From Bacillota bacterium (GTDB lineage Bacteria > Bacillota > UBA994), in contig WSXW01000002.1 of assembly GCA_009773495.1 (NCBI GenBank), positions 1-64,000 on the forward strand: a stretch of DNA of 64,000 bases. Direction: 5' to 3'. The translations under genes were made by a program, and so were the position numbers. Below, piece by piece: positions 16,086 to 34,274 of the stretch. The notes beneath the pieces were generated by a model. The model ran no database searches, was not told where the DNA came from, and was given only the letters and a program-made list of their open reading frames with translations. Numbering within the stretch: the first letter of the stretch is position 1; the number at the start of each line of letters is the position of its first letter.

Positions 16086-17387
16086 CTACGCCTTGGCGTC
16101 TCCCAACATTTCTGCCATATCGTCAGCAGCGTTGCTGATAAGCTTGAGGTTGAAGTGCGTCTGTAGGGCATTGAGCACGCCTGGGGTGATGAAGTCTGGG
16201 GGAGTAGGTCCGATGTAGATATTCTTTACACCTATGCTGAAGAGACCTAAAAGGATAGCTACTGCCTTTTGCTCAAACCATGAAAGCACTACGCTTACGG
16301 GTAGGTCATTTACGCCACAACTGAAAGCATCTGCTAAGGCTGCGGCAATCTTGACGGCAGAACCGCTGTTGTTGCACTGACCTAGGTCAATGTAGCGAGG
16401 AATGCTTGTCCCAGGTACCGAGCCGAAGTCTACGTCGTTAAAGCGGAACTTACCACAAGAGGTAGTAAGGATAACACAGTCCTGCGGTAGCGAGGTTGCT
16501 AGGGTTCTGTAGTATTCCCCACCCTTGCCGGGAGCATCGCAGCCCGCAATTACAAAGAAGCGGCGGATCTTGCCAGTCTTTACTGCCCCGATAATTTCTG
16601 GGGCAATAGATAGGACTGTCTGGTGGTGGAAGCCGGTAGTCAATGTCTTGCTACTGGCAACGTTCGCAGCAGGAAGCTCTAGGGCCCTATTGATGATTGG
16701 CGTGAAGTCATTGTTTTCAATCTTTAGCACACCTTCGAGACCAGTTACATCGTAGGCGAAGAAGCGGTCGGAGTAAGTACCTTTGATTGGCATAATGCAA
16801 TTGGTGGTGCCAAGAATAGAGCCAGGGAACTCTTCGAATACCTTGCGTTGGTCATACCAAGCCTTGCCTACGTTACCCTTCAGGTGAGCATATTTCTTTA
16901 AGTGTGGGTAGCCGTGGGCAGGCAGCATCTCGGAGTGGGTGTAGATGTTAATGCCCTTGCCTACGCTCTGCTCTAGAAGCATCTCGAGAGCGAGTAGGTT
17001 ATGACCAGTTACAAGAATGCACTTGCCCTCAACCTTATCCTGGGAGACTACTGCAGGTTGAGGAACACCGAGACGGTCTAGATGCGCTTTGTCTAAGAGA
17101 TCCATGACCCTAAGAGTAGCGCCACCGACCTTCATAGCTAGCTTAAGATGGTCGTCAAGGCTAAAGTTTACATTAGTAAGGGTAGTGTAGAGTGCCTCTT
17201 GAGTAACTGCATCCACTTCGGGGTCAGTGTAGCCGAGTTGACGGGCGTGAGTAGCATAAGCAGCGATACCCTTTAATGCAAAAATGACTGTGTCTTGGAG
17301 GCTGGCGATGTCCTCATTTTTCCCGCAGACACCTATCTTGGTGCAGCCACCTTTGGGGGTTTGCTCACATTGATTGCAAAACATCAT
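16086..17387 (-). CDS. hcp: Hybrid-cluster protein (short, class III-like)
   Basis: About 433 residues, with the [4Fe-4S] motif C-x2-C-x7-C-x5-C at the N terminus (CNQC, then C, then GVCG) and the hybrid Fe-S-O cluster ligand regions VTGHNLLALEMLLEQ, GTTNCIMPIKG, IAGCDAPGKGGEYYRTL and LTTSCGKFRF. At about 430 residues it is shorter than the 540-550 of class I/II enzymes, which suits class III, lacking one helical bundle. Hcp acts in nitrosative-stress defence (NO or hydroxylamine reduction). The start is one of two adjacent ATGs after AAAGGAG; the longer frame to 17408 has no ribosome binding site. A palindromic CRP/FNR-type site lies upstream. Confidence 0.93.
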   Translation of the reverse strand: MMFCNQCEQTPKGGCTKIGVCGKNEDIASLQDTVIFALKGIAAYATHARQLGYTDPEVDAVTQEALYTTLTNVNFSLDDHLKLAMKVGGATLRVMDLLDKAHLDRLGVPQPAVVSQDKVEGKCILVTGHNLLALEMLLEQSVGKGINIYTHSEMLPAHGYPHLKKYAHLKGNVGKAWYDQRKVFEEFPGSILGTTNCIMPIKGTYSDRFFAYDVTGLEGVLKIENNDFTPIINRALELPAANVASSKTLTTGFHHQTVLSIAPEIIGAVKTGKIRRFFVIAGCDAPGKGGEYYRTLATSLPQDCVILTTSCGKFRFNDVDFGSVPGTSIPRYIDLGQCNNSGSAVKIAAALADAFSCGVNDLPVSVVLSWFEQKAVAILLGLFSIGVKNIYIGPTPPDFITPGVLNALQTHFNLKLISNAADDMAEMLGDAKA

Positions 17388-17464
17388 GTGTAAAAGAACT
17401 CCTTTCAAACTTTCAAATTTAACCGTGTTACATAAATACTATAGCTATGGGTGGAGTATAACTC

Positions 17465-17480
17465 TGTGACAAATGTCACA
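17465..17480 (-). promoter_or_regulatory. CRP/FNR-type operator upstream of hcp
   Basis: TGTGACAAATGTCACA, with 7-bp inverted arms around two central bases, 78 bases upstream of the hcp start. This matches the TGTGA-N6-TCACA form used by CRP/FNR-family regulators; in many anaerobes the regulator HcpR controls hcp. The regulator assignment is inferred. Confidence 0.6.
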
Positions 17481-17575
17481 AAGCGTTTAAAAATTAAAAA
17501 AGCTCTAACAGTGACTCCATGTAGCACCATCCTTTCCTATAAAGGATGAATGACATAGGGGGGAAGGACATCACT

Positions 17576-24425: not shown

Positions 24426-24443
24426 GATTTTAAATTTAAAATC
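24426..24443 (+). promoter_or_regulatory. AT-rich palindrome, candidate operator
   Basis: GATTTTAAATTTAAAATC is a perfect 18-base palindrome 36 bases before the GntR gene. It is a candidate autoregulatory site for the catabolic operon; this is inference, as palindromes occur by chance in AT-rich DNA. Confidence 0.35.
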
Positions 24444-24478
24444 TAAAATTTAATTTGCAGATGGGGAGTATCATTGTG

Positions 24479-25156
24479 ATGGATACGAAGCATTATCAGA
24501 ACCAGACACTTGTTGAGGTAGCATATAAGGCGCTGAAGCGAGACATTGCTGAGAGGGCGTTCTTGCCTGGGCAAAAGCTGATAACTAGGGAATTACATGA
24601 GCGGTACGGTATTAGCGAAACACCTATCAAACTAGCCTTAAATAGACTCATTACGGAAGGCTTAATAGAGAGCATCCCTCGGAGAGGGTTTAGTGTGAAG
24701 AATATTGACTGGGAAGATATAGATGAGCTTCTAGACGTAAGGAAGATGTTAGAGACGTATTATAGCAGTCAAATTTTGGATAACTTTCAGAAGGACATTC
24801 ATATGCAACGGCAATTCTTGGAGAACATCACTGAGCACAAGCGCATTGTAGAGCATGGGGTCGACATCAACGACTATTTCCAAGTCTATTCGCTGGATTA
24901 TGAGTTTCATCAAATGTTTATAAGATGTGCTGGGAATAAGCGCATTGCCCAAGTTTATGACAACCTAGGTACCCATGTGTATGCCTACTATATTTATGGC
25001 AAGCAGAGCAAAGAGGCAACTATTGATGGGGTCAGAGAGCATGAGGATATTTACGAGGCGCTGGTAGCGCGGGATGAGGTCAGACTGCAGCAGTGTGTAG
25101 AGATGCACTTAGAAAATGCCAAGGTGAAAATTAGAAACGTGCTCAAGAATGAGTGA
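24479..25156 (+). CDS. GntR family regulator (FCD domain)
   Basis: About 225 residues: an N-terminal winged helix (RDIAERAFLPGQKLITRELH, then SETPIKLALNRLITEGLI) and a C-terminal all-helical FCD ligand-binding domain with the Asp/His pattern (DVRKMLE, EFHQMFIRCAGN, EHEDIYEALVARD). It heads the sugar-acid operon and probably represses it until the substrate or an intermediate binds. The start is ATG 24479 or the GTG before it, both after GGGGAG; the longer upstream frame would include the ribosome binding site. Confidence 0.9.
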   Translation: MDTKHYQNQTLVEVAYKALKRDIAERAFLPGQKLITRELHERYGISETPIKLALNRLITEGLIESIPRRGFSVKNIDWEDIDELLDVRKMLETYYSSQILDNFQKDIHMQRQFLENITEHKRIVEHGVDINDYFQVYSLDYEFHQMFIRCAGNKRIAQVYDNLGTHVYAYYIYGKQSKEATIDGVREHEDIYEALVARDEVRLQQCVEMHLENAKVKIRNVLKNE

Positions 25157-25174
25157 TACGGCGGGAGGTGAACG

Positions 25175-25999
25175 GTGGGCATGGATTTGCAGGTAGATTT
25201 GCGTAATAAGGTAGCAGTGCTGACAGGCGGGGCGGGAGTTTTGTGCGCTGGAATGGCCGAGGCTCTGGCGGGCAGTGGAGCCAAAGTGGCCGTTTTAGAC
25301 CTAAGGGAAGAGGCGGCTGAAAAAGTTGCGCAGGAGATAAGGGCGACGAGAGGCCTGGCCATAGGCGTTGGTGTTGACGTGCTCTCGAAGCAGTCCTTGG
25401 AGTCTGCCCGGTCGAGAATTCTTCTAGAACTCGGCACAGTCGACATTCTCATCAATGGCGCGGGTGGCAATATGCCACAAGCGACGACAAGTCCCGAGAG
25501 GTCCTTCTTTGACTTGACGGCAGAAGACATCCGCAAGGTGCTTGAGCTAAACTTTATGGGAACGGTACTCGCCACGCAAGTTTTCGGTGAAGTCATGGTA
25601 AAGAAAAATAAAGGCGTTATCATAAATATTTCCTCAATGGCGGCGTACACTCCGCTCACGCGAACTATCGCCTACAGTGCCGCCAAAGCTGCCGTGTCGA
25701 ATGTTACGCAGTGGCTGGCCGTGCACTTTAACCAAGAATATTCCAAAGAGATTCGCGTCAATGCCATAGCCCCGGGTTTCTTAATTACCGACCAAAACAG
25801 GTACCTGTTAATGGATGATGCGACTGGGGAAGCCACTCCGCGCGGGCAAGCCGTACTAGCGGCTACCCCCATGGGGAAATACGGGAGAATGGAGGATTTA
25901 TTGGGGGCGGTGTTGTTTCTTTGTTCAGAAGCGTCATCCTTCGTGAATGGAGCCATAATCCCCCTTGACGGCGCCTTTTCTGCGTATTCGGGGGTGTGA
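25175..25999 (+). CDS. SDR oxidoreductase (mannonate-oxidoreductase-like)
   Basis: A 274-residue short-chain dehydrogenase. Seen: the NAD(P) motif TGGAGVLCAGMA, the NGAGG strand, catalytic Ser in NISSMAAY and YSAAK, and PGFLITDQNRYL, with a C-terminal FSAYSGV. This pattern is that of the SDR-type D-mannonate/fructuronate oxidoreductases (YjmF-like). It would interconvert a sugar acid and its keto form. It starts with GTG after GGGAGGTG, 18 bases after the regulator, and ends 15 bases before the next gene. Confidence 0.88.
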   Translation: MGMDLQVDLRNKVAVLTGGAGVLCAGMAEALAGSGAKVAVLDLREEAAEKVAQEIRATRGLAIGVGVDVLSKQSLESARSRILLELGTVDILINGAGGNMPQATTSPERSFFDLTAEDIRKVLELNFMGTVLATQVFGEVMVKKNKGVIINISSMAAYTPLTRTIAYSAAKAAVSNVTQWLAVHFNQEYSKEIRVNAIAPGFLITDQNRYLLMDDATGEATPRGQAVLAATPMGKYGRMEDLLGAVLFLCSEASSFVNGAIIPLDGAFSAYSGV

Positions 26000-26014
26000 A
26001 GGGGAGGATCAAAC

Positions 26015-27286
26015 ATGGAAAACAGATATCTGGTGGCCAAAACTGTAGATGGTCTTGCCCCTGCAGAGATTGAGCTGGCAATCAAGGAGTACTTCAATGG
26101 GTCTACCAAGGCGAAAAAGGTGTTAATTGTGCCACCGGATATTTCAAGGTTAAATTCTTATGCAGGTCCCCTTGTCAATATGCTATGTAAACATTTTCCT
26201 GATACGGAAATAGACATAATGCCTGCGTTGGGTACGCATACCCCTATGTCGGATAGAGAAATCAAGAAAATGTATGGCGATCTTCCGCACAGTAGATTTC
26301 TAATTCATGATTGGCGCAATGACACTGTCAATGTCGGGCAGGTTGCGGCAAGCTACGTGCAAGAGATATCCGGGGGCGTGATGGAGCAAGGCATTATTGT
26401 AGACGTCAATAAGAGACTGCTCGACCCGACATATGACTTCGTAATATCAGTGGGTCAGGTTGTTCCGCATGAGGTGGCTGGCTTTGCTAACTACACTAAG
26501 AATATTGTGGTGGGGTGTGGTGGCAGTAGCATGATAAATCAAAGTCACTATTTGGGTGCTTTGTACGGCATGGAACGTATTATGGGCCGGGTAGATAACC
26601 CGGTGCGCAAGCTCTATAACTACGCGGTGAGCCAATTTTTGTCCGATGTACCAGTGATCTATATGTTGACTGTCACAACATTTAGTGAAACAGGGCTCAA
26701 AGTCGAGGCGCTCTCTATCGGTGGAGGCGACGAGCTCTTTGCCGAAACAGCAAAAATTAGTGCACAGAAAAACATGACTCTTTTAGAGCAGCCTCTACAA
26801 AAGGTGGTTGTCTACCTAGACCCGGAGAAGTTTAAGACAACTTGGGTGGGCAACAAGGCCATCTATAGAACTAGAATGGTCATCGCAGATGGCGGAGAAC
26901 TAGTAGTGATTGCCCCTTCTCTGGAAGCGTGTGGCGAGGATAGAGAAAATGACAGGTTGATCAAGAAGTTTGGCTATTTACCGCAACATGAAGTCTTAGC
27001 GGCGGTAAGCGAGGATGAGGAATTAGGGAAAAATCTGTCGGTGGCTGCCCACCTCATACACGGCTCTAGCGAAGGCCGGTTTAAGGTGACTTATGCGCCA
27101 GGGAAAATGTCCAAAGAGCTTATTGCGTCGCTCAATTACGATTACCTGCCACTAGATGATGCCTTACATAAATATGATGTCGATAACATGTGCGAGGGGT
27201 TCAATGTAATAGACGGGGAAGAGATATTTTATATCAGTAATCCCGCTCTCGGTCTTTGGACTACCAAGTTCAGGTTCAACAGCTAG
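26015..27286 (+). CDS. LarA-family nickel-dependent racemase/epimerase homologue
   Basis: A 423-residue homologue of lactate racemase LarA, which uses the nickel-pincer nucleotide cofactor to interconvert 2-hydroxyacid stereoisomers. Seen: D42 and R45 in PPDISR, H75 in GTHTPM, then H152 in PHEVAG, K162 in YTKNI and H178 in QSHYL. The spacings H-10-K and K-16-H equal those of LarA (H174, K184, H200 from memory of the family), and D-3-R also matches. So the cofactor Lys and Ni-ligand His are kept. The LarB, LarC and LarE cofactor-making genes are not in the window. Its place in a kinase/aldolase operon suggests a sugar-acid epimerase rather than a lactate racemase. GGGGAGG precedes the ATG. Confidence 0.88.
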   Translation: MENRYLVAKTVDGLAPAEIELAIKEYFNGSTKAKKVLIVPPDISRLNSYAGPLVNMLCKHFPDTEIDIMPALGTHTPMSDREIKKMYGDLPHSRFLIHDWRNDTVNVGQVAASYVQEISGGVMEQGIIVDVNKRLLDPTYDFVISVGQVVPHEVAGFANYTKNIVVGCGGSSMINQSHYLGALYGMERIMGRVDNPVRKLYNYAVSQFLSDVPVIYMLTVTTFSETGLKVEALSIGGGDELFAETAKISAQKNMTLLEQPLQKVVVYLDPEKFKTTWVGNKAIYRTRMVIADGGELVVIAPSLEACGEDRENDRLIKKFGYLPQHEVLAAVSEDEELGKNLSVAAHLIHGSSEGRFKVTYAPGKMSKELIASLNYDYLPLDDALHKYDVDNMCEGFNVIDGEEIFYISNPALGLWTTKFRFNS

Positions 27287-27306
27287 AGTAAAGGGGATTG
27301 TTTTGT

Positions 27307-28794
27307 ATGCTGATTCTTGTCTTGGAGGCTTCCACGGCGTCGGCCAAGGCCATGTTGTACGACGATCGTCTAGGCATCGTTGGCATTTTGCCTAGGAACT
27401 ACTCTCTGGATGCCGGCGATACGGTGACGTATGACGCCGACAAACTGATGTGGGAAACGCTCCGAGCAGGGCGAGAGCTCTTAGCGCAAAAGGGAATAGA
27501 CCATGTAGACATGATTGCCACGTGTAGTATTTGGAGTCATTCTCTTTTGATGCTTGACAACAATAAGCGCCCGGTCGGGCGTCTTAGCACCTGGGCTGAC
27601 ACAAAGCCATGGCCGACCACCGAAAAATACAGGCGCGACATTAAACTTTTCGTCTCCCTATATAAGCGCACCGGTTGCCCCATTCACACCACATATACTC
27701 TCTGGAAATATATCCATGAAAAAGAGTCTGGCTCTACTGATGGCGTGGCTTTCATCGCTTCTATGCCGGAGTATCTTTTTTATAAGCTCACCGAGGAGTT
27801 TGCAGTTTCTAAGAGCACTGCCTCGGCCAGTGGCTTCTTGAATCTGTATTCGTTGGAGTGGGACAAAGAGGTATTAAGCCTAGCAGGGGTTGATGAAAAA
27901 ATGCTCCCCAAGCTAGTGGGGTCAGAATATACTGCGCCTCTAACCAAGGGAGCGGCAGAAATTTTAGGCCTACTAGAAGGCATTCCAGTTCTTATAACCG
28001 GCGCGGATGGTTGCATGAACCATGTAGCAGCAGGCGGATTTAGCGAGGATATTATGACTCTCTCCATAGGTACTAGCGCTGCCATGCGCCTAGCGACCGA
28101 TAGGCCGATCCTTGCCGACTACCCTGCCACGTGGTGCTATGTCGGCGTGGAAAACATGTGGGTGGCGGGGAGTGCCACGGCCGGTGCGGGTAATTGTGTG
28201 GACTGGATAGGCAAAAAGATTCTCGGAATTAAGAACAGCCTTTCGCTCAAGGAATTAGATGCTGGCGCAGAAAAGGCCCTCTTGAGGGGGGATGCCCCTA
28301 TCTTTTTGCCGTTCTTAGCAGGAGAGCGCTGCCCGGCCTGGGATGACACCAAGAGTGCTATGTTTTGTGAACTGCGCATCAACCATGACATCTATGATCT
28401 CTACTATGCCGTTCTGGAAGGCGTGCTTTTCAATCTCAGGCAGTGTTATGAGATTACCATTCCCATCATCGGTCGTTCCCCAAAATTCATCAGTATTTCC
28501 GGTGGCATCGAAGAGTCACCGCTGTGGTTATCAATGGCGGCTTCGATCTTTGGTTTGCCCGTGCATACCAATGGGCTGATGCATACTTCATTGCTCGGCA
28601 CCGCCTATATGGGGTTAAAAGCTGCAGGTGTCATGGACTCAGTAAGAGACATAGCTCCCCAGATAGGGGGCAGCTATGAGCCGGAGTGTGACAGAGCAGA
28701 GTTTTTTACTAAGCGCTTTCAGAGGTATTTAAAATACTATGCATGGGAAACTTTAGGCCGGTCTGCGCGGGACAAGGATGGTGACTACAGGTGA
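27307..28794 (+). CDS. FGGY family carbohydrate kinase
   Basis: About 495 residues, actin-like ATPase kinase. Seen: N-terminal ILVLEASTASAKAMLYD (phosphate 1 loop, D/E variants), GADGCMNHVAAGG and SIGTSAAMR in the second half, catalytic Asp in the AGAGNCVDW region, FLPFLAGERCPAWD (as in gluconate/xylulose kinases) and the adenosine motif ISGGIEESPLWL. Likely phosphorylates the sugar acid or its keto form. The ATG at 27307 follows AAGGGG with 10 bases; the TTG at 27298 is too near. Its stop overlaps the next start (GTGA). Confidence 0.9.
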   Translation: MLILVLEASTASAKAMLYDDRLGIVGILPRNYSLDAGDTVTYDADKLMWETLRAGRELLAQKGIDHVDMIATCSIWSHSLLMLDNNKRPVGRLSTWADTKPWPTTEKYRRDIKLFVSLYKRTGCPIHTTYTLWKYIHEKESGSTDGVAFIASMPEYLFYKLTEEFAVSKSTASASGFLNLYSLEWDKEVLSLAGVDEKMLPKLVGSEYTAPLTKGAAEILGLLEGIPVLITGADGCMNHVAAGGFSEDIMTLSIGTSAAMRLATDRPILADYPATWCYVGVENMWVAGSATAGAGNCVDWIGKKILGIKNSLSLKELDAGAEKALLRGDAPIFLPFLAGERCPAWDDTKSAMFCELRINHDIYDLYYAVLEGVLFNLRQCYEITIPIIGRSPKFISISGGIEESPLWLSMAASIFGLPVHTNGLMHTSLLGTAYMGLKAAGVMDSVRDIAPQIGGSYEPECDRAEFFTKRFQRYLKYYAWETLGRSARDKDGDYR

Positions 28795-29726
28795 AAGTGC
28801 TAATTACCCCTAAATCGTTCAAGAACTACAAGGGAAAGACCTACCCACTTCTCGAAAGTGCGGGCTGGCAAATCATCGAAAATAACACGGGCAGGACATT
28901 ATCCGAGAATGAGGTTATTGAGCTAGCGGGAGAGGGTGTATATGGTATCATCGTCGGCATCGATATCTTGTCTGAGCGGGTGCTTAAGAACTGTAGAGAC
29001 TTAAGGGCAATTTCGAAGTACGGTGTCGGCTTAGACAATATCGATTTAGCGGCCGCAGCGAGACTCAACATCAAGATAATGAATGCGGTGGGTAGCAATA
29101 ATATCTCGGTCGCAGAGTTGACGCTAGCCCTTATGTTCGAAGCCGCCCGCAGGGTTTCGGTCCTCGGCGCAAACGTTAAGGCACACCGCTGGGAAAGACT
29201 TATGGGCATGGAGTTGACAGGGAAGACCGTCGGCTTGATCGGTGGTGGGCAAATAGGAAAGGAAGTAGCAAAACGGGCCAGAGGATTAGGTATGTACGTG
29301 AGCATATTTGACCCTTATTTTAAGGACTCTGCTTTTCTTGAGGAGCATCAGATCCACTTGTGCGGGTCGCTACACGACCTATTGAGAGTATCAGACGTGG
29401 TGTCCCTGCATTTGCCTTTGACTACAGACACCAAATACATCTTGAACAGCGAGACTCTCAGTCTCATGAAACCGACAGGCGTCTTGCTCAACACTTCCCG
29501 GGGCGAGCTAGTAGACGAAGCTGCACTTTATGTGGCGCTCAAAGAAAAGGTGATTGCCTTTGCCGCCCAAGATGTGTTTTCCATGGAACCGCCAGCGCCA
29601 GATGAAAAGCTGCTATCCTTGGACAATTTCCTATTGACACCCCATGCGGGAGCTTACACGGCGGAAGCAATTGAGAGAATGGCACTCCATTCTACACACA
29701 ATCTCCTTAGAATGCTCAACACTTAG
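28791..29726 (+). CDS. D-2-hydroxyacid dehydrogenase (phosphoglycerate-dehydrogenase-like)
   Basis: A 311-residue NAD(P)-dependent dehydrogenase. Seen: the nucleotide motif GLIGGGQIGKEVAKRA, active-site Arg in NTSRGELVDEAAL, the Glu in VFSMEPP and the His in LTPHAGAYT. No ACT or regulatory domain is present, so it is not likely the serine-pathway enzyme. In the operon it probably oxidises a phosphorylated hydroxyacid intermediate. It starts with GTG overlapping the kinase stop by four bases. Confidence 0.88.
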   Translation: MKVLITPKSFKNYKGKTYPLLESAGWQIIENNTGRTLSENEVIELAGEGVYGIIVGIDILSERVLKNCRDLRAISKYGVGLDNIDLAAAARLNIKIMNAVGSNNISVAELTLALMFEAARRVSVLGANVKAHRWERLMGMELTGKTVGLIGGGQIGKEVAKRARGLGMYVSIFDPYFKDSAFLEEHQIHLCGSLHDLLRVSDVVSLHLPLTTDTKYILNSETLSLMKPTGVLLNTSRGELVDEAALYVALKEKVIAFAAQDVFSMEPPAPDEKLLSLDNFLLTPHAGAYTAEAIERMALHSTHNLLRMLNT

Positions 29727-29752
29727 CTACAGCGGCTGGTTGGAGGTTAAAA

Positions 29753-30397
29753 ATGAAAAAATGGCACGTTTTAAACAGCATAGTCAGCGTAGGATTGGTA
29801 GCGGTCGTGAGAGCAGAGAATAGCGAAATGGCGACGAGCATTGCCTCTGCTTGCTTGGAGGGGGGATTGTCGGCTATAGAAATAACGTATACAGTTCCTG
29901 GTGCGACGGACATTATCAGTAAGCTTAGCCATACTCATGGCCACAATATTATCTTAGGGGCTGGAACGGTGCTTGACCCAGAAACAGCCCGACTGGCCAT
30001 TCTGGCCGGTGCGCAATACATAGTCAGCCCGAGTTTCAACCTGGACACGGCTCGCCTGTGCAATCGCTATCAGGTGCCATACATGGCTGGCGTCATGACC
30101 ATTCGGGAAGTCATCGAGGCGCTAGAGAATGGTGTCGATATCTTAAAAGTTTTTCCGGGTGAGATCTTTGGGCCACAAATTATTAAGTCCATCAAAGGAC
30201 CACTGCCGCAAGCCAATTTATTGCCAACAGGCGGCGTTTCGCTTGAAAATGTCGAACAATGGATATCCGCAGGAGCGATCGCAGTGGGAGTCGGTGGCCA
30301 GTTGACGGCCGGGGCCAAAACAGGCAACTATGGAGCAATAACCGAGTATGCAAGCAAGATGATTGCAAAGATACGGTCGGCCAGAGCAAAGAGTTAG
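29753..30397 (+). CDS. eda: 2-keto-3-deoxy-6-phosphogluconate/KHG aldolase
   Basis: A 214-residue class I aldolase of the KDPG/KHG family that splits a 2-keto-3-deoxy (or keto-hydroxy) acid to pyruvate plus an aldehyde. Seen: VAVVRAENSEMA, the Glu in SAIEITYTVPGA, GAGTVLDPE, the Schiff-base Lys in VDILKVFPGE (about residue 131), and LLPTGGVSLENVEQWISAGA. Length is normal. GGAGG precedes the ATG. It is the final catabolic step of the operon before the transporter. Confidence 0.92.
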   Translation: MKKWHVLNSIVSVGLVAVVRAENSEMATSIASACLEGGLSAIEITYTVPGATDIISKLSHTHGHNIILGAGTVLDPETARLAILAGAQYIVSPSFNLDTARLCNRYQVPYMAGVMTIREVIEALENGVDILKVFPGEIFGPQIIKSIKGPLPQANLLPTGGVSLENVEQWISAGAIAVGVGGQLTAGAKTGNYGAITEYASKMIAKIRSARAKS

Positions 30398-30556
30398 CGG
30401 TGTGAGCAACTGTTGTTGCGTAGGCTGCACCGTCAAAAATGTTGGCGCAAGAGGAGGAGGTGTGCTCTGGGTCAAATTATGTTGAGTGTGCGTTGGATGT
30501 GATAGGGGAGCGTAAATTGAGCTAAATGTGAAACGAGAAAATAGGAGGGAAAACAG

Positions 30557-31573
30557 GTGACAACAAAACGCTCACGAAAAGGTCTTACCGTCTTGATGGT
30601 AGTGGCCTTAGCCACGGCGATGCTGTTAGTCAGCGGGTGTCAAGAGGAAGAGCAGGAGAAGTTTGTGCTTAGGTTTAACCATGTATTAGCACCGACGGAG
30701 CCCTATCATCAAGGATTCCTAGATTGGGCTAAGCGCGTATCCGAGCGGACTAATGGGGGCCTGACAATCGAAGTTTCTCCGAGTGCCCAACTCGGCAAAG
30801 AAGAAGACATCATCGAGCAGCTAAGAATGGGAGCTAATATAGGGCAAAATACTGACTCTGCCCGCCTTGGCATGTACGTGCCAGCCATCGCTGTCTTAAA
30901 TGCGCCGTATTTCGTCGACAACATCGACGAGGTCACCAAGCTTAGAGATCTGCCAGCTGTCCAGCAATGGCTGAAAGAACTTGAGTTTAAATTTGGTATT
31001 AAGGTTTTGTCATTTAACTGGGTACAGGGCCATCGGTACATGATAACTAACGTACCGATCAGACATCCAGACGATCTCAAGGGTCTCCGTATCAGAACCC
31101 CTGGGGTACCAATTTGGCAGGAATCTATCCGCGCCATTGGCGCGACTCCTGTATCACTTCCCTTTGGAGAAGTCTATACGGCGATGCAGACAGAGGCTAT
31201 TGACGGTGCTGAACTCGTGTATCGCAACGTGACTGGGGCAAAACTCTTTGAGATTGCCGATTACCTGAGCGAGACGGGGCATATTTTGTTGATCAACTTC
31301 TCCATCGTGGGGAGAGCGTGGTTTGACAGCCTACCTGCTGAATATCAGAAGATACTTATTGAGGAGAATGAAAAAGCCGGCCTAGAGACCTCGAGAAAAA
31401 TGGAAGCGGATATAGCTGTGGCGAGGGCAGAACTTGTGCAAAATGGCATGACCATCATCACTGATGTTGACGTGGCGGCCTTTAGGGCAGCCGGCGAGGC
31501 AGCCTACGCTGCACTAAATCTCACAGCGGCACGCGACAAAATATACGAACAGCTAGGCAAAACAAGGCCCTAA
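30557..31573 (+). CDS. dctP: TRAP transporter substrate-binding protein DctP
   Basis: A 338-residue lipoprotein: a lipobox LLVSGC at about residues 23-28 indicates membrane anchoring on the outer face. The DctP fold motifs follow: FNHVLAPTEPYHQG, a Gln/Asp binding cleft, and the conserved Arg in GLRIRTPG, which salts to the carboxylate of the ligand. TRAP systems import organic and sugar acids using ion gradients. GTG start after AGGAGGG. First of three transporter genes in the operon. Confidence 0.93.
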   Translation: MTTKRSRKGLTVLMVVALATAMLLVSGCQEEEQEKFVLRFNHVLAPTEPYHQGFLDWAKRVSERTNGGLTIEVSPSAQLGKEEDIIEQLRMGANIGQNTDSARLGMYVPAIAVLNAPYFVDNIDEVTKLRDLPAVQQWLKELEFKFGIKVLSFNWVQGHRYMITNVPIRHPDDLKGLRIRTPGVPIWQESIRAIGATPVSLPFGEVYTAMQTEAIDGAELVYRNVTGAKLFEIADYLSETGHILLINFSIVGRAWFDSLPAEYQKILIEENEKAGLETSRKMEADIAVARAELVQNGMTIITDVDVAAFRAAGEAAYAALNLTAARDKIYEQLGKTRP

Positions 31574-31677
31574 TCACTCGTCGTAGTGATACGGGTGGCA
31601 TGTCGGCCCTGCGTTATCGCGGGGCTGGATGCCGCCTGTAAATCCGGCTAGCTGTGCAGAGAGGTGGTTAGGAAATT

Positions 31678-32154
31678 ATGGCAATCGTATCAAGGGTCTA
31701 TGACTTCATTTGCCGAACTGAACTGTTCATCACTAAAGCTTTTATAGCTGCGCTCACCGGGCTGGTCTTCTTCTCGGCCCTAGCAAGAACCTTGCGCCAC
31801 CCCGTGAGCTGGGCCATAGACATAGCGATTTTTCTTTTCGTCTGGTGCGTTTTTTTCAGTGCTGATATAGCTATGCGCAAAGATAAGCTGGTAACAGTCG
31901 ACATCGTGACTGTTTATCTGCCCCCAAAAATCCAGCGCGCCCTTAAATTAGTTAATTATCTTATTATCAGCTTATTTTTGTTTTTTTTAATATATTATAG
32001 TATTCATTTATCCTATACTAGCAGATTTGTGCGCTTTCAAGGGATAACTTGGTTCAGCTACACCTGGGTTGTCTTGAGTGTGCCTGTTGGGTGTACGTTG
32101 TTACTCATCACATCTATCTTGAAGATGTGGAAGTGTTATAAAAATGGACCCTAA
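31678..32154 (+). CDS. dctQ: TRAP transporter small permease DctQ
   Basis: A 158-residue membrane protein with four hydrophobic segments and the family pattern WAIDIAIFLFVWCVFFSADI followed by a charged RKDKLVTVDIV. It holds the large permease and binding protein in the import complex. GAGAGGTGG precedes the ATG; the gene follows dctP at 104 bases and precedes dctM at 42 bases. Confidence 0.9.
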   Translation: MAIVSRVYDFICRTELFITKAFIAALTGLVFFSALARTLRHPVSWAIDIAIFLFVWCVFFSADIAMRKDKLVTVDIVTVYLPPKIQRALKLVNYLIISLFLFFLIYYSIHLSYTSRFVRFQGITWFSYTWVVLSVPVGCTLLLITSILKMWKCYKNGP

Positions 32155-32196
32155 GGCAAATCAAATATCAGCGGCAGTTAGCAGGAGGACGACCAG

Positions 32197-33480
32197 ATGA
32201 CTCTAGTGTTTTTTCTTTTTCTGCTGTTTATGATGATGGGCATGCCCGTCGCCTATGCTATTGGCATATCAGGGACTGTCTTTTTTCTGCAGCTGGGGAC
32301 GCTGCCTCTGACTATACCGGTGCAGCTTTTTCTCACACAGTCGCAAAATTTCGTTTTGCTGGCCATTCCACTGTTCGTGTTTGCAGGCAATCTCCTCAAC
32401 GAAACGGGCATAACTGTTCGCTTACTAAAACTCTCATCCATCTTGGTAGGGCATTTCCGAGCTGGCTTGGCACAGGTTACAGTAGTTTTATCGGCTATGA
32501 TGGGCGGCATCTCGGGTTCGGCCATTGCCGATGCCTCTATGCAAGGACGCATTTTGCGAGACGGAATGATCGCGAGAGGTTATTCTAGGGGCTTCTCCGC
32601 CGGCATCATCGGCACAAGCGCCCTCATCGTGACCATGATTCCACCAAGCATTGGCCTCGTCTTGTATGGAAGCATTGGCGAGGTTTCTATCGGTCGTCTC
32701 TTTGCCGCAGGCATCGTACCGGGTCTCCTCATAACAGTTTTTTTGTTTGCGGGTGTGGAATTTGTCGCTAGAAGGAAAGGCTACCAACCGGAACGGCAGA
32801 CCAGAGCCCCAGTTAAAGAGATGGCAGTTACTTTTGTCGAATGTATCTGGGCTTTTCTCTTCCCCATTATTTTGATGGCTGGGTTGCGGCTTGGTTTTTT
32901 CACTCCGTCAGAAGCTGGTGCTTTTGCGGCAGTCTATGCCATAGTGATTGGGGTATTTGCGTACAAAGAATTTACCTGGGGAAAATTTTTAAAAACCTTA
33001 GAGTCCACAGCCATTGATATTGGCATGATTATGCTCGTCATCAGCATGTCTGCAATTTTCAGCTACGGTATAACGTGGGACGGGTTGCCACAGGCGCTAG
33101 CTCAGTTCCTGTTGGGGATATCATCCATCCCTTGGGTGATAATGCTTATTATCATTCTGTTCTTGCTTGTTGCCGGGATGTTCATGGACTCTACGGTCTT
33201 AATTTTACTTCTCACCTCCATACTTGTTCCTGTCGCCGGCACTTTGGGCATTGATCTGGTGCATTTTGGCATTGTGATGGTCTTAACGCTTACGGTGGGG
33301 CTCCTCACTCCCCCTCTTGGCGTCGTCATGTTTGTCGTTTGCTCGATATTTGAATGTTCTATCTGGGAATTTATGAAAGAATCGTGGGTATTTATGGCGC
33401 TCGTAGTGCTTGCAGTAATGCTGGTCATTTTCTTTCCCGGGCTCGCATTATTCTTGCCCAACTTATTTTTTGGAACATAA
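32197..33480 (+). CDS. dctM: TRAP transporter large permease DctM
   Basis: A 427-residue membrane protein with about eleven to twelve hydrophobic segments. Seen: GMPVAYAIGISG near the N terminus, the GNLLNETGIT loop, the SGSAIADAS stretch and the two-fold repeated GLLTPPLGVVMFV pattern of DctM/SiaM large permeases. It forms the sodium-coupled transport path. GGAGG precedes the ATG. Followed by the second SDR at about 30 bases. Confidence 0.92.
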   Translation: MTLVFFLFLLFMMMGMPVAYAIGISGTVFFLQLGTLPLTIPVQLFLTQSQNFVLLAIPLFVFAGNLLNETGITVRLLKLSSILVGHFRAGLAQVTVVLSAMMGGISGSAIADASMQGRILRDGMIARGYSRGFSAGIIGTSALIVTMIPPSIGLVLYGSIGEVSIGRLFAAGIVPGLLITVFLFAGVEFVARRKGYQPERQTRAPVKEMAVTFVECIWAFLFPIILMAGLRLGFFTPSEAGAFAAVYAIVIGVFAYKEFTWGKFLKTLESTAIDIGMIMLVISMSAIFSYGITWDGLPQALAQFLLGISSIPWVIMLIIILFLLVAGMFMDSTVLILLLTSILVPVAGTLGIDLVHFGIVMVLTLTVGLLTPPLGVVMFVVCSIFECSIWEFMKESWVFMALVVLAVMLVIFFPGLALFLPNLFFGT

Positions 33481-33512
33481 GGCGAGGCGCTTGATTAAGG
33501 AGGATGTTAGTG

Positions 33513-34274
33513 ATGTATTTTCATAATCAGGCGGTGCTCATAACTGGCGCCGGCGCAGGCATAGGTCGTAAAACTGCCGTGTTATTCGCTGAGCGGGGCG
33601 CAAAAGTGGCAGTCAATGATTTGCGCGCATCAGCTGGTGGTGAGGAGACACTGCAGTTGGTGCGGAACTTGGGCGCTGAAGGCATCTTTGTGGCGGGAGA
33701 CGTCTCTGTAGCCTTGGATGCTGAGAAGATGGTCAACGAAACTGTTTCGGCATTTGGCAAAATTGATATCTTGATCAACAATGCAGGGATTGTCCTGCCA
33801 GGTCGCGTAGACAATATGTCGGAAGACGACTTTGATAGAACGATGCGGGTAAATGTGAAAGGCGCCTTCTTGGTAGCCAAATATGCCGTTTTGGAGATGA
33901 AAAAGCGTGGTGGAGGGGCTATTGTAAATATCGCTTCTGTCGCTGCCCTCAAAGGCATACAGGACAGAAGTGCTTATTGTGCCTCCAAAGGCGCTCTCGT
34001 CTCTCTCACTAGGGCGATGGCCGCCGATTATTTAAAAGAGAACATCCGCGTTAACTGCGTTTGCCCCGGCACCACTTATACACCGTCCTTAGAGGAGAGG
34101 ATACAGGCACACAAAGACCCAGAAGCGATGCGAGCCGAATTCATTAGCAGGCAACCCATGGGGCGTCTTGGCAAAGAAGAAGAAATAGCCCATGCTGTTT
34201 TGTTTGCTTGCTGCGCTGAAGCCGCCTTTATGAACGGCAGCATCGTCAGCATTGACGGCGGTGCCTTAATCTAA
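33513..34274 (+). CDS. SDR oxidoreductase (FabG/keto-deoxy-sugar-acid dehydrogenase-like)
   Basis: A 253-residue short-chain dehydrogenase. Seen: TGAGAGIGRKTA, NNAG, catalytic Ser in NIASVAAL and YCASKGAL, and PGTTYTPS, with the C-terminal MNGSIVSIDGGA. It resembles SDRs that oxidise 2-keto-3-deoxy sugar acids, but general FabG-like roles cannot be excluded. The ATG at 33513 (or the adjacent GTG) is used because AAGGAGG ends just before an ATG at 33504 that is too close. It is the last gene of the operon. Confidence 0.82.
   Translation: MYFHNQAVLITGAGAGIGRKTAVLFAERGAKVAVNDLRASAGGEETLQLVRNLGAEGIFVAGDVSVALDAEKMVNETVSAFGKIDILINNAGIVLPGRVDNMSEDDFDRTMRVNVKGAFLVAKYAVLEMKKRGGGAIVNIASVAALKGIQDRSAYCASKGALVSLTRAMAADYLKENIRVNCVCPGTTYTPSLEERIQAHKDPEAMRAEFISRQPMGRLGKEEEIAHAVLFACCAEAAFMNGSIVSIDGGALI

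Follow-up and report, generated by a model that had tools for sequence, protein, structure and literature searches.

A possible dehydratase-free route of sugar-acid breakdown encoded by a LarA-containing operon of a Bacillota bacterium

How can an operon make use of an aldolase of the 2-keto-3-deoxy-6-phosphogluconate (KDPG) type if no dehydratase is encoded to provide the deoxy substrate? This question is raised by a sugar-acid operon in the window analysed here, a stretch of 64,000 nucleotides from a Bacillota bacterium (assembly GCA_009773495.1, contig WSXW01000002.1). The original prediction, made for positions 25175–30397 from the sequence alone, offered two answers: a dehydratase encoded elsewhere in the genome, or an aldolase cleaving a non-deoxy keto-acid phosphate to a product such as hydroxypyruvate. 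We confirmed that neither the operon nor the searched genome encodes a dehydratase of the known families; the gap does exist and is wider than was first seen. The second answer is the best reading and can now be given a concrete enzyme order, namely a dehydratase-free pathway in which 2-keto-6-phosphogluconate would be cleaved to hydroxypyruvate and glyceraldehyde-3-phosphate. We propose it tentatively, at a probability of about 0.36.

The interval 25175–30397 contains a short-chain dehydrogenase gene (SDR1), a LarA-family gene and the genes of an FGGY kinase, a D-2-hydroxyacid dehydrogenase (2HADH) and an aldolase of the KDPG/2-keto-4-hydroxyglutarate (KHG) family. It is part of a ten-gene operon (ca. 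24426–34274) which runs from a GntR/FCD regulator (24455) through a second short-chain dehydrogenase (SDR2), with the tripartite ATP-independent periplasmic (TRAP) transporter DctP-DctQ-DctM in between:

24426..24443, no strand: probable operator, a perfect 18-bp palindrome, GATTTTAAATTTAAAATC, directly 5' of the GntR gene
24455..25156, + strand: GntR/FCD-type regulator (PF00392 and PF07729 above cut-off; start possibly the ATG near 24479)
25175..25999, + strand: SDR1, fructuronate reductase/D-mannonate oxidoreductase type (NCBIfam PRK08277, 367.8 bits, cut-off 281)
26015..27286, + strand: LarAH group 18 (LarAH18), putative nickel-pincer-nucleotide hexonate (mannonate/gluconate) 2-epimerase (NF052594, 582 bits, cut-off 500)
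27298..28794, + strand: FGGY-family sugar(-acid) kinase, nearest to gluconokinase (PF00370/PF02782)
28791..29726, + strand: 2HADH, proposed C2 dehydrogenase/reductase (PF02826/PF00389; best solved match 1wwk, a phosphoglycerate dehydrogenase, PGDH)
29753..30397, + strand: KDPG/KHG-family class I aldolase (PRK06552, 296 bits, cut-off 238; PF01081)
30557..31573, + strand: TRAP transporter binding protein DctP (PF03480)
31678..32154, + strand: TRAP transporter small subunit DctQ (PF04290)
32197..33480, + strand: TRAP transporter large subunit DctM (PF06808)
33504..34274, + strand: SDR2, short-chain dehydrogenase, substrate unassigned (PF13561)

Of the genes originally listed, SDR1, the kinase, the 2-hydroxyacid dehydrogenase and the aldolase are present in the interval, while the second short-chain dehydrogenase (33504–34274) lies outside it at the operon end; the central LarA-family gene (26015–27286) had been omitted. 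All ten genes are found in the same order in the loci L001 (genome G004), L002, L097 (G003) and L099 (G007), which indicates that the arrangement is more than chance (L numbers denote fetched loci or stretches, G000 the source genome of the window and other G numbers related genomes). In G005 the operon copy is divided over two contigs by contig ends (L098, L177).

None of the ten operon proteins scored above the cut-off of any dehydratase family and no match was obtained anywhere in the window with UxuA, UxaA, Edd and DgoD of E. coli as queries, which bears out the absence noted at the outset. Profile searches of the G000 genome (2.52 Mb, 76 contigs, 97.8% complete) yielded no match for PF03786 (UxuA), PF00920 (IlvD/Edd) or PF04295 (GD_AH, the altronate/galactarate type) and two for PF13378 (enolase family). 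One of the two, a weak match in a 438-aa frame, is probably enolase. The other, on contig C39, has L-Ala-D/L-Glu epimerase as its top model (255 bits, below the cut-off of 500) and reaches at most 122 bits with sugar-acid dehydratase models, and its gene adjoins one recognised by eye as cell-wall hydrolase-like; in view of these scores and this neighbour it was rejected as the dehydratase, and the protein looks like a dipeptide epimerase. To our knowledge, the UxuA, IlvD/Edd, GD_AH and enolase superfamilies together cover the known sugar-acid dehydratases, and for these the idea of an enzyme encoded elsewhere in the genome is left without support. Within the order, UxuA was found in none of eight genomes and IlvD/Edd in three (G005, G006 and G008). 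Among the five operon carriers of the order (G000, G003, G004, G005 and G007) only G005 has IlvD proteins; none was found in G000, G003, G004 and G007.

An alignment of upstream sequences from six carriers revealed the palindrome; the window, L001, L097 and L098 have identical copies, whereas those of L099 and L002 have diverged. The pattern matches the window once at up to 3 mismatches (0.04 expected), and in the G000 genome the operon copy is the only one with 2 mismatches or fewer. The two additional places at 3 mismatches equal in number those of a reversed-pattern control, and the genes near them, judged by eye, are phospholipid-synthesis, RNA-methyltransferase and nutrient-transport-like genes, with no sugar-acid genes. 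A dehydratase gene carrying the same operator elsewhere, named in the original prediction as its refutation, was not found at this stringency; on the basis of the operator scan and the four negative family searches, a co-regulated enzyme of the known families elsewhere in G000 was rejected.

The omitted gene suggests how a dehydratase might be dispensed with. Its product passes the LarAH group 18 model and has the cofactor and catalytic residues checked: H75, H152, K162 and H178 align to H108, H174, K184 and H200 of LarA, for which cofactor-binding and catalytic roles are described in the accessible text of PMC7583248, and are invariant in the 7 sequences aligned. The protein also matches structure 4nar, whose PDB title reads 'putative uronate isomerase'. 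In the accessible text of PMC7583248 the activity of group 18 is presented as a hypothesis. Genes within 7 kb of LarAH18 were scored in the best 80 of 582 stretches encoding LarAH18 relatives, 28 of the 80 having less than 3 kb on one side. A gene for 6-phosphogluconate dehydrogenase (Gnd) is present in 49 of these loci, in all 49 within 3.1 kb and with a median gap of 920 bp, whereas neither UxuA nor Edd is found in any of the 80. This proximity to Gnd without UxuA or Edd suggests that LarAH18 probably serves, as a rule, to convert mannonate to gluconate, feeding 6-phosphogluconate. SDR1-type genes occur in 31 of the loci, E. coli-type UxaC in 12, FGGY kinases in 8 and UxaA in 3; a BH0493-type uronate isomerase is present in 8 and one or the other type of uronate isomerase in 23. 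The neighbour counts point to a common, dehydratase-free module of uronate isomerase, fructuronate reductase, LarAH18, gluconokinase and 6-phosphogluconate dehydrogenase. Kinases 41–44% identical to the window FGGY protein adjoin LarAH18 in L005, L006, L010 and L023; the window kinase itself reaches 217 bits with the gluconokinase model TIGR01314, under the cut-off of 648. LarC, which inserts nickel in the formation of the nickel-pincer nucleotide cofactor, is encoded in G000 (C1:60818–62023, L110) and also in G006, G008 and G009, three genomes without LarAH18; it was not found in the carriers G003, G004, G005 and G007, all with the LarAH18 operon.

This known dehydratase-free route of LarA-type epimerase, kinase and 6-phosphogluconate dehydrogenase was not considered in the original prediction. 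The operon possesses its first half, and the last enzyme has no copy in the genome, which sharpens the puzzle: Gnd (PF00393) was found in none of the eight genomes of the order, although the model does recognise short NAD-dependent enzymes, namely proteins of L161 and L175 (E 2e-22 and 8.6e-23). 6-Phosphogluconate thus has no known exit in these genomes; from G000, Edd and the other exits searched for are absent as well. UxaC (PF02614) was likewise found in none of the eight, a result that does not exclude the BH0493-type isomerase, to which Pfam is blind. BH0493-type isomerases match no Pfam model even at E 0.1 and are identified by a profile giving 671 bits to the solved uronate isomerases PDB 2pnk/2q08; Pfam-based surveys of uronate isomerases would therefore miss such enzymes. 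Members of this type were seen at L162:10744–12000, L166:7343–8599, L005:11126–12382, L006:7407–8657, L023:17637–18887, L051:5599–6843 and L003:594–1865.

An exit could be formed by two enzymes of the operon itself, the aldolase and the 2HADH; the latter is able to introduce the ketone at C2 on which a class I aldolase depends. We thus propose the following scenario. The TRAP transporter would import an acid derived from a hexuronate, such as D-fructuronate, which SDR1 would reduce to D-mannonate. LarAH18 would epimerise D-mannonate to D-gluconate, or act after phosphorylation, and the FGGY kinase would produce 6-phosphogluconate. In place of Gnd or a dehydratase, the 2HADH would oxidise C2 to give 2-keto-6-phosphogluconate, which the KDPG-family aldolase, requiring just a ketone at C2 and a hydroxyl at C4, might split into glyceraldehyde-3-phosphate and hydroxypyruvate, the latter to be reduced further to glycerate. 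The upper half, up to 6-phosphogluconate, is reasonably probable on the basis of homology and strong neighbourhood evidence. The lower half, C2 oxidation and aldol cleavage, is a hypothesis drawn by inference, and stays so in view of an ordinary aldolase active site and of one relative which pairs the same enzymes with 6-phosphogluconate dehydrogenase.

For the 2HADH, a role as phosphoglycerate dehydrogenase is unlikely and was rejected. At the position of an Arg-Ser in the solved PGDH 1wwk, which we take to be the phosphate motif before the substrate loop of 3-phosphoglycerate dehydrogenase, the window protein has GID, and all 14 aligned sequences have Gly-x-Asp. Among 398 genomes of the phylum, 30 have a 2HADH match at E ≤ 1e-70, and 28 stretches around these genes (L150–L177, L152 and L176 overlapping and L177 belonging to G005) were searched with E. 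coli and window proteins. A KDPG-type aldolase (at least 42% identity) without an exit gene in the stretch is present in L162, L166, L165 and L177. L162 and L166, from two genomes of one genus (G025 and G290), combine the 2HADH with a BH0493-type isomerase, KDPG aldolase, SDR1, FGGY kinase and LarAH18, and no Gnd or dehydratase was found within the fetched stretches. A LarAH18 tree built from 86 of 88 rows unites the window clade as one group of 5 (support 100/100) and joins L162/L166 to the Gnd-bearing L046/L065 (support 98/84). Owing to this separation, the arrangement of 2HADH, KDPG aldolase and LarAH18 without Gnd appears to have arisen twice, in the window clade and in G025/G290. Taken jointly, these features may represent a new kind of uronate/gluconate breakdown, arisen at least twice, in which a nickel-pincer epimerase and a 2HADH prepare 2-keto-6-phosphogluconate for a KDPG-family aldolase that would be its natural aldolase. 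Such a route would involve no dehydration and no loss of CO2 and would be redox-balanced up to the cleavage; as a whole it is conceivable, with the odds against it.

Several observations weigh against a cleavage of 2-keto-6-phosphogluconate. The aldolase has the ordinary set of KDPG-aldolase active-site residues: the motif of the Schiff-base Lys and the Glu are conserved in the alignment. The position of E. coli Ser184, which we take to be the phosphate-binding Ser, is Gly in the window, L001, L097, L157 and L160 and Ser in L002 and L099. The single clade-wide change near the active site is a Gln after the phosphate-loop Gly/Ser, and the reading of an altered specificity from the sequence was rejected. 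The 64% identical aldolase of L005 lies near an ordinary UxaA gene. Some exit gene is found near the 2HADH in 11 of the 28 stretches: an IlvD/Edd-type dehydratase in L157–L160 and L167, UxuA in L150 and L151, UxaA together with DgoD in L171 and a Gnd type in L153, L161 and L175. Since the 2HADH stands with both Gnd and a KDPG aldolase in L161, and with Gnd and SDR2 in L153, it has a role independent of the aldolase, which may be the reduction of 2-ketogluconate(-6-phosphate); a plain replacement of Gnd by the 2HADH is contradicted by L153, L161 and L175, where both genes stand together. L164 and L172 carry DctP and DctM of 59–63% identity with 2HADH, SDR1 and FGGY kinase and no LarA or aldolase in the stretches, L172 stopping at a contig end, so the transported substrate need not go through LarA everywhere. 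Furthermore, the carrier G005 has two IlvD proteins, both passing IlvD models, and one of their genes adjoins a galactarate-dehydratase-like gene; dehydratase-like genes are thus present in G005. Two GD_AH matches were obtained in G002, from which L002 comes.

The strongest alternative is that a dehydratase outside the searched families, or encoded in the missing few percent of the assembly, generates 2-keto-3-deoxygluconate (KDG) or KDPG for an ordinary aldolase. It agrees with the canonical appearance of the aldolase, with the incompleteness of G000 (97.8%, not 100%) and with L157 and L160, which keep an IlvD/Edd type beside 2HADH, FGGY kinase, TRAP transporter, LarA and KDPG aldolase. However, the known families are absent from G000, IlvD/Edd also from G003, G004 and G007 and UxuA from all eight genomes, no second operator copy was found, and four assemblies are unlikely all to miss one and the same gene by chance; on balance we consider this explanation somewhat less likely than the proposed route. 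Less probable still is a two-branch funnel, in which the 2HADH feeds the gluconate pool by reducing imported 2-ketogluconate(-6-phosphate), while the aldolase, without cleaving 6-phosphogluconate, serves KDG/KDPG or 4-hydroxy-2-oxoglutarate of other origin. The 2HADH indeed recurs with LarA and FGGY kinase in loci that have UxuA or Gnd but no nearby KDPG aldolase (L150, L151, L153), and PRK06552 members are annotated also for 2-keto-4-hydroxyglutarate, but gluconate and 6-phosphogluconate would be left without an exit, Gnd and Edd being absent. A replacement of Gnd by SDR2 or some other dehydrogenase, acting on 6-phosphogluconate at C3 with oxidation and decarboxylation to ribulose-5-phosphate, is very improbable: SDR2 belongs to the conserved operon and has a 64% identical counterpart adjoining Gnd-LarAH18-FGGY-2HADH in the Gnd operon of L153, but there it sits by a Gnd and is hence no substitute, and the aldolase would stay unexplained.

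The proposed pathway shares its upper logic with known systems. In the available text of PMC7583248, a route with GntE is proposed for Thermotoga maritima in which fructuronate is converted to mannonate and, by a 2-epimerase and a kinase, to 6-phosphogluconate without a dehydratase; the available text of PMC6978723 reports a galacturonate route to 6-phosphogluconate in cell extracts of Lactobacillus suebicus, with phosphorylation first. The window operon resembles both, at the level of genes, in its fructuronate-mannonate-2-epimerase-kinase logic. As far as these texts describe them, both routes finish in the pentose phosphate/phosphoketolase pathway, that of L. suebicus via 6-phosphogluconate dehydrogenase, which is absent from the window genome; the operon has a 2HADH and a KDPG-type aldolase in its place. 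Among the LarAH groups 18, 19 and 20 (hexonate/D-gluconate 2-epimerases), the window protein matches the group 18 model, its substrate being predicted. With the isomerase (Ashwell) pathway UxaC-UxuB-UxuA-KdgK-Eda, the operon has in common a fructuronate reductase-type SDR and a KDPG-type aldolase; it differs by lacking UxuA, by an FGGY instead of a PfkB-type kinase and by LarAH18. The 2-ketogluconate (kgu) pathway, as outlined in the accessible text of PMC6651773, similarly has a kinase and a reductase linking 2-keto-6-phosphogluconate and 6-phosphogluconate, but then needs Edd or Gnd, neither of which was found in the window genome. With regard to the cleavage, the same text, citing de Berardinis 2017, offers a precedent for the chemistry in other aldolases, namely pyruvate aldolases using hydroxypyruvate and glyceraldehyde, and our search of the open-licence literature found no report of a cleavage of 2-keto-6-phosphogluconate to hydroxypyruvate by an aldolase. 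If correct, the proposal would add a third lower half of sugar-acid breakdown beside the dehydratase/KDPG and 6-phosphogluconate dehydrogenase routes and give the aldolase reaction on hydroxypyruvate a natural role. Even if it is false, the neighbourhood data assign to LarAH group 18 a specific reaction that can be tested, the conversion of mannonate to gluconate as a supply of 6-phosphogluconate, and genomes are identified for which one may ask how 6-phosphogluconate is used further.

Some of the loci deserve mention in their own right. L161:7503–11702 encodes a row of phosphotransferase system (PTS) component, Ldh2-type dehydrogenase (PF02615), 2HADH, KDPG aldolase and NAD-type 6-phosphogluconate dehydrogenase; this may be a PTS operon for 2-ketogluconate or gluconate. 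In L162, a second LarA-family gene (16239–17573) directly follows LarAH18, forming a tandem pair of nickel-pincer enzymes; its product is nearest to the malate racemase group LarAH6, below the cut-off of that model, and in L166 the contig stops after LarAH18. Finally, genes resembling N-acetylglucosamine-6-phosphate deacetylase were recognised by eye in the LarAH18 loci L003, L018 and L051, a hint that the substrate in some lineages is an amino-sugar acid.

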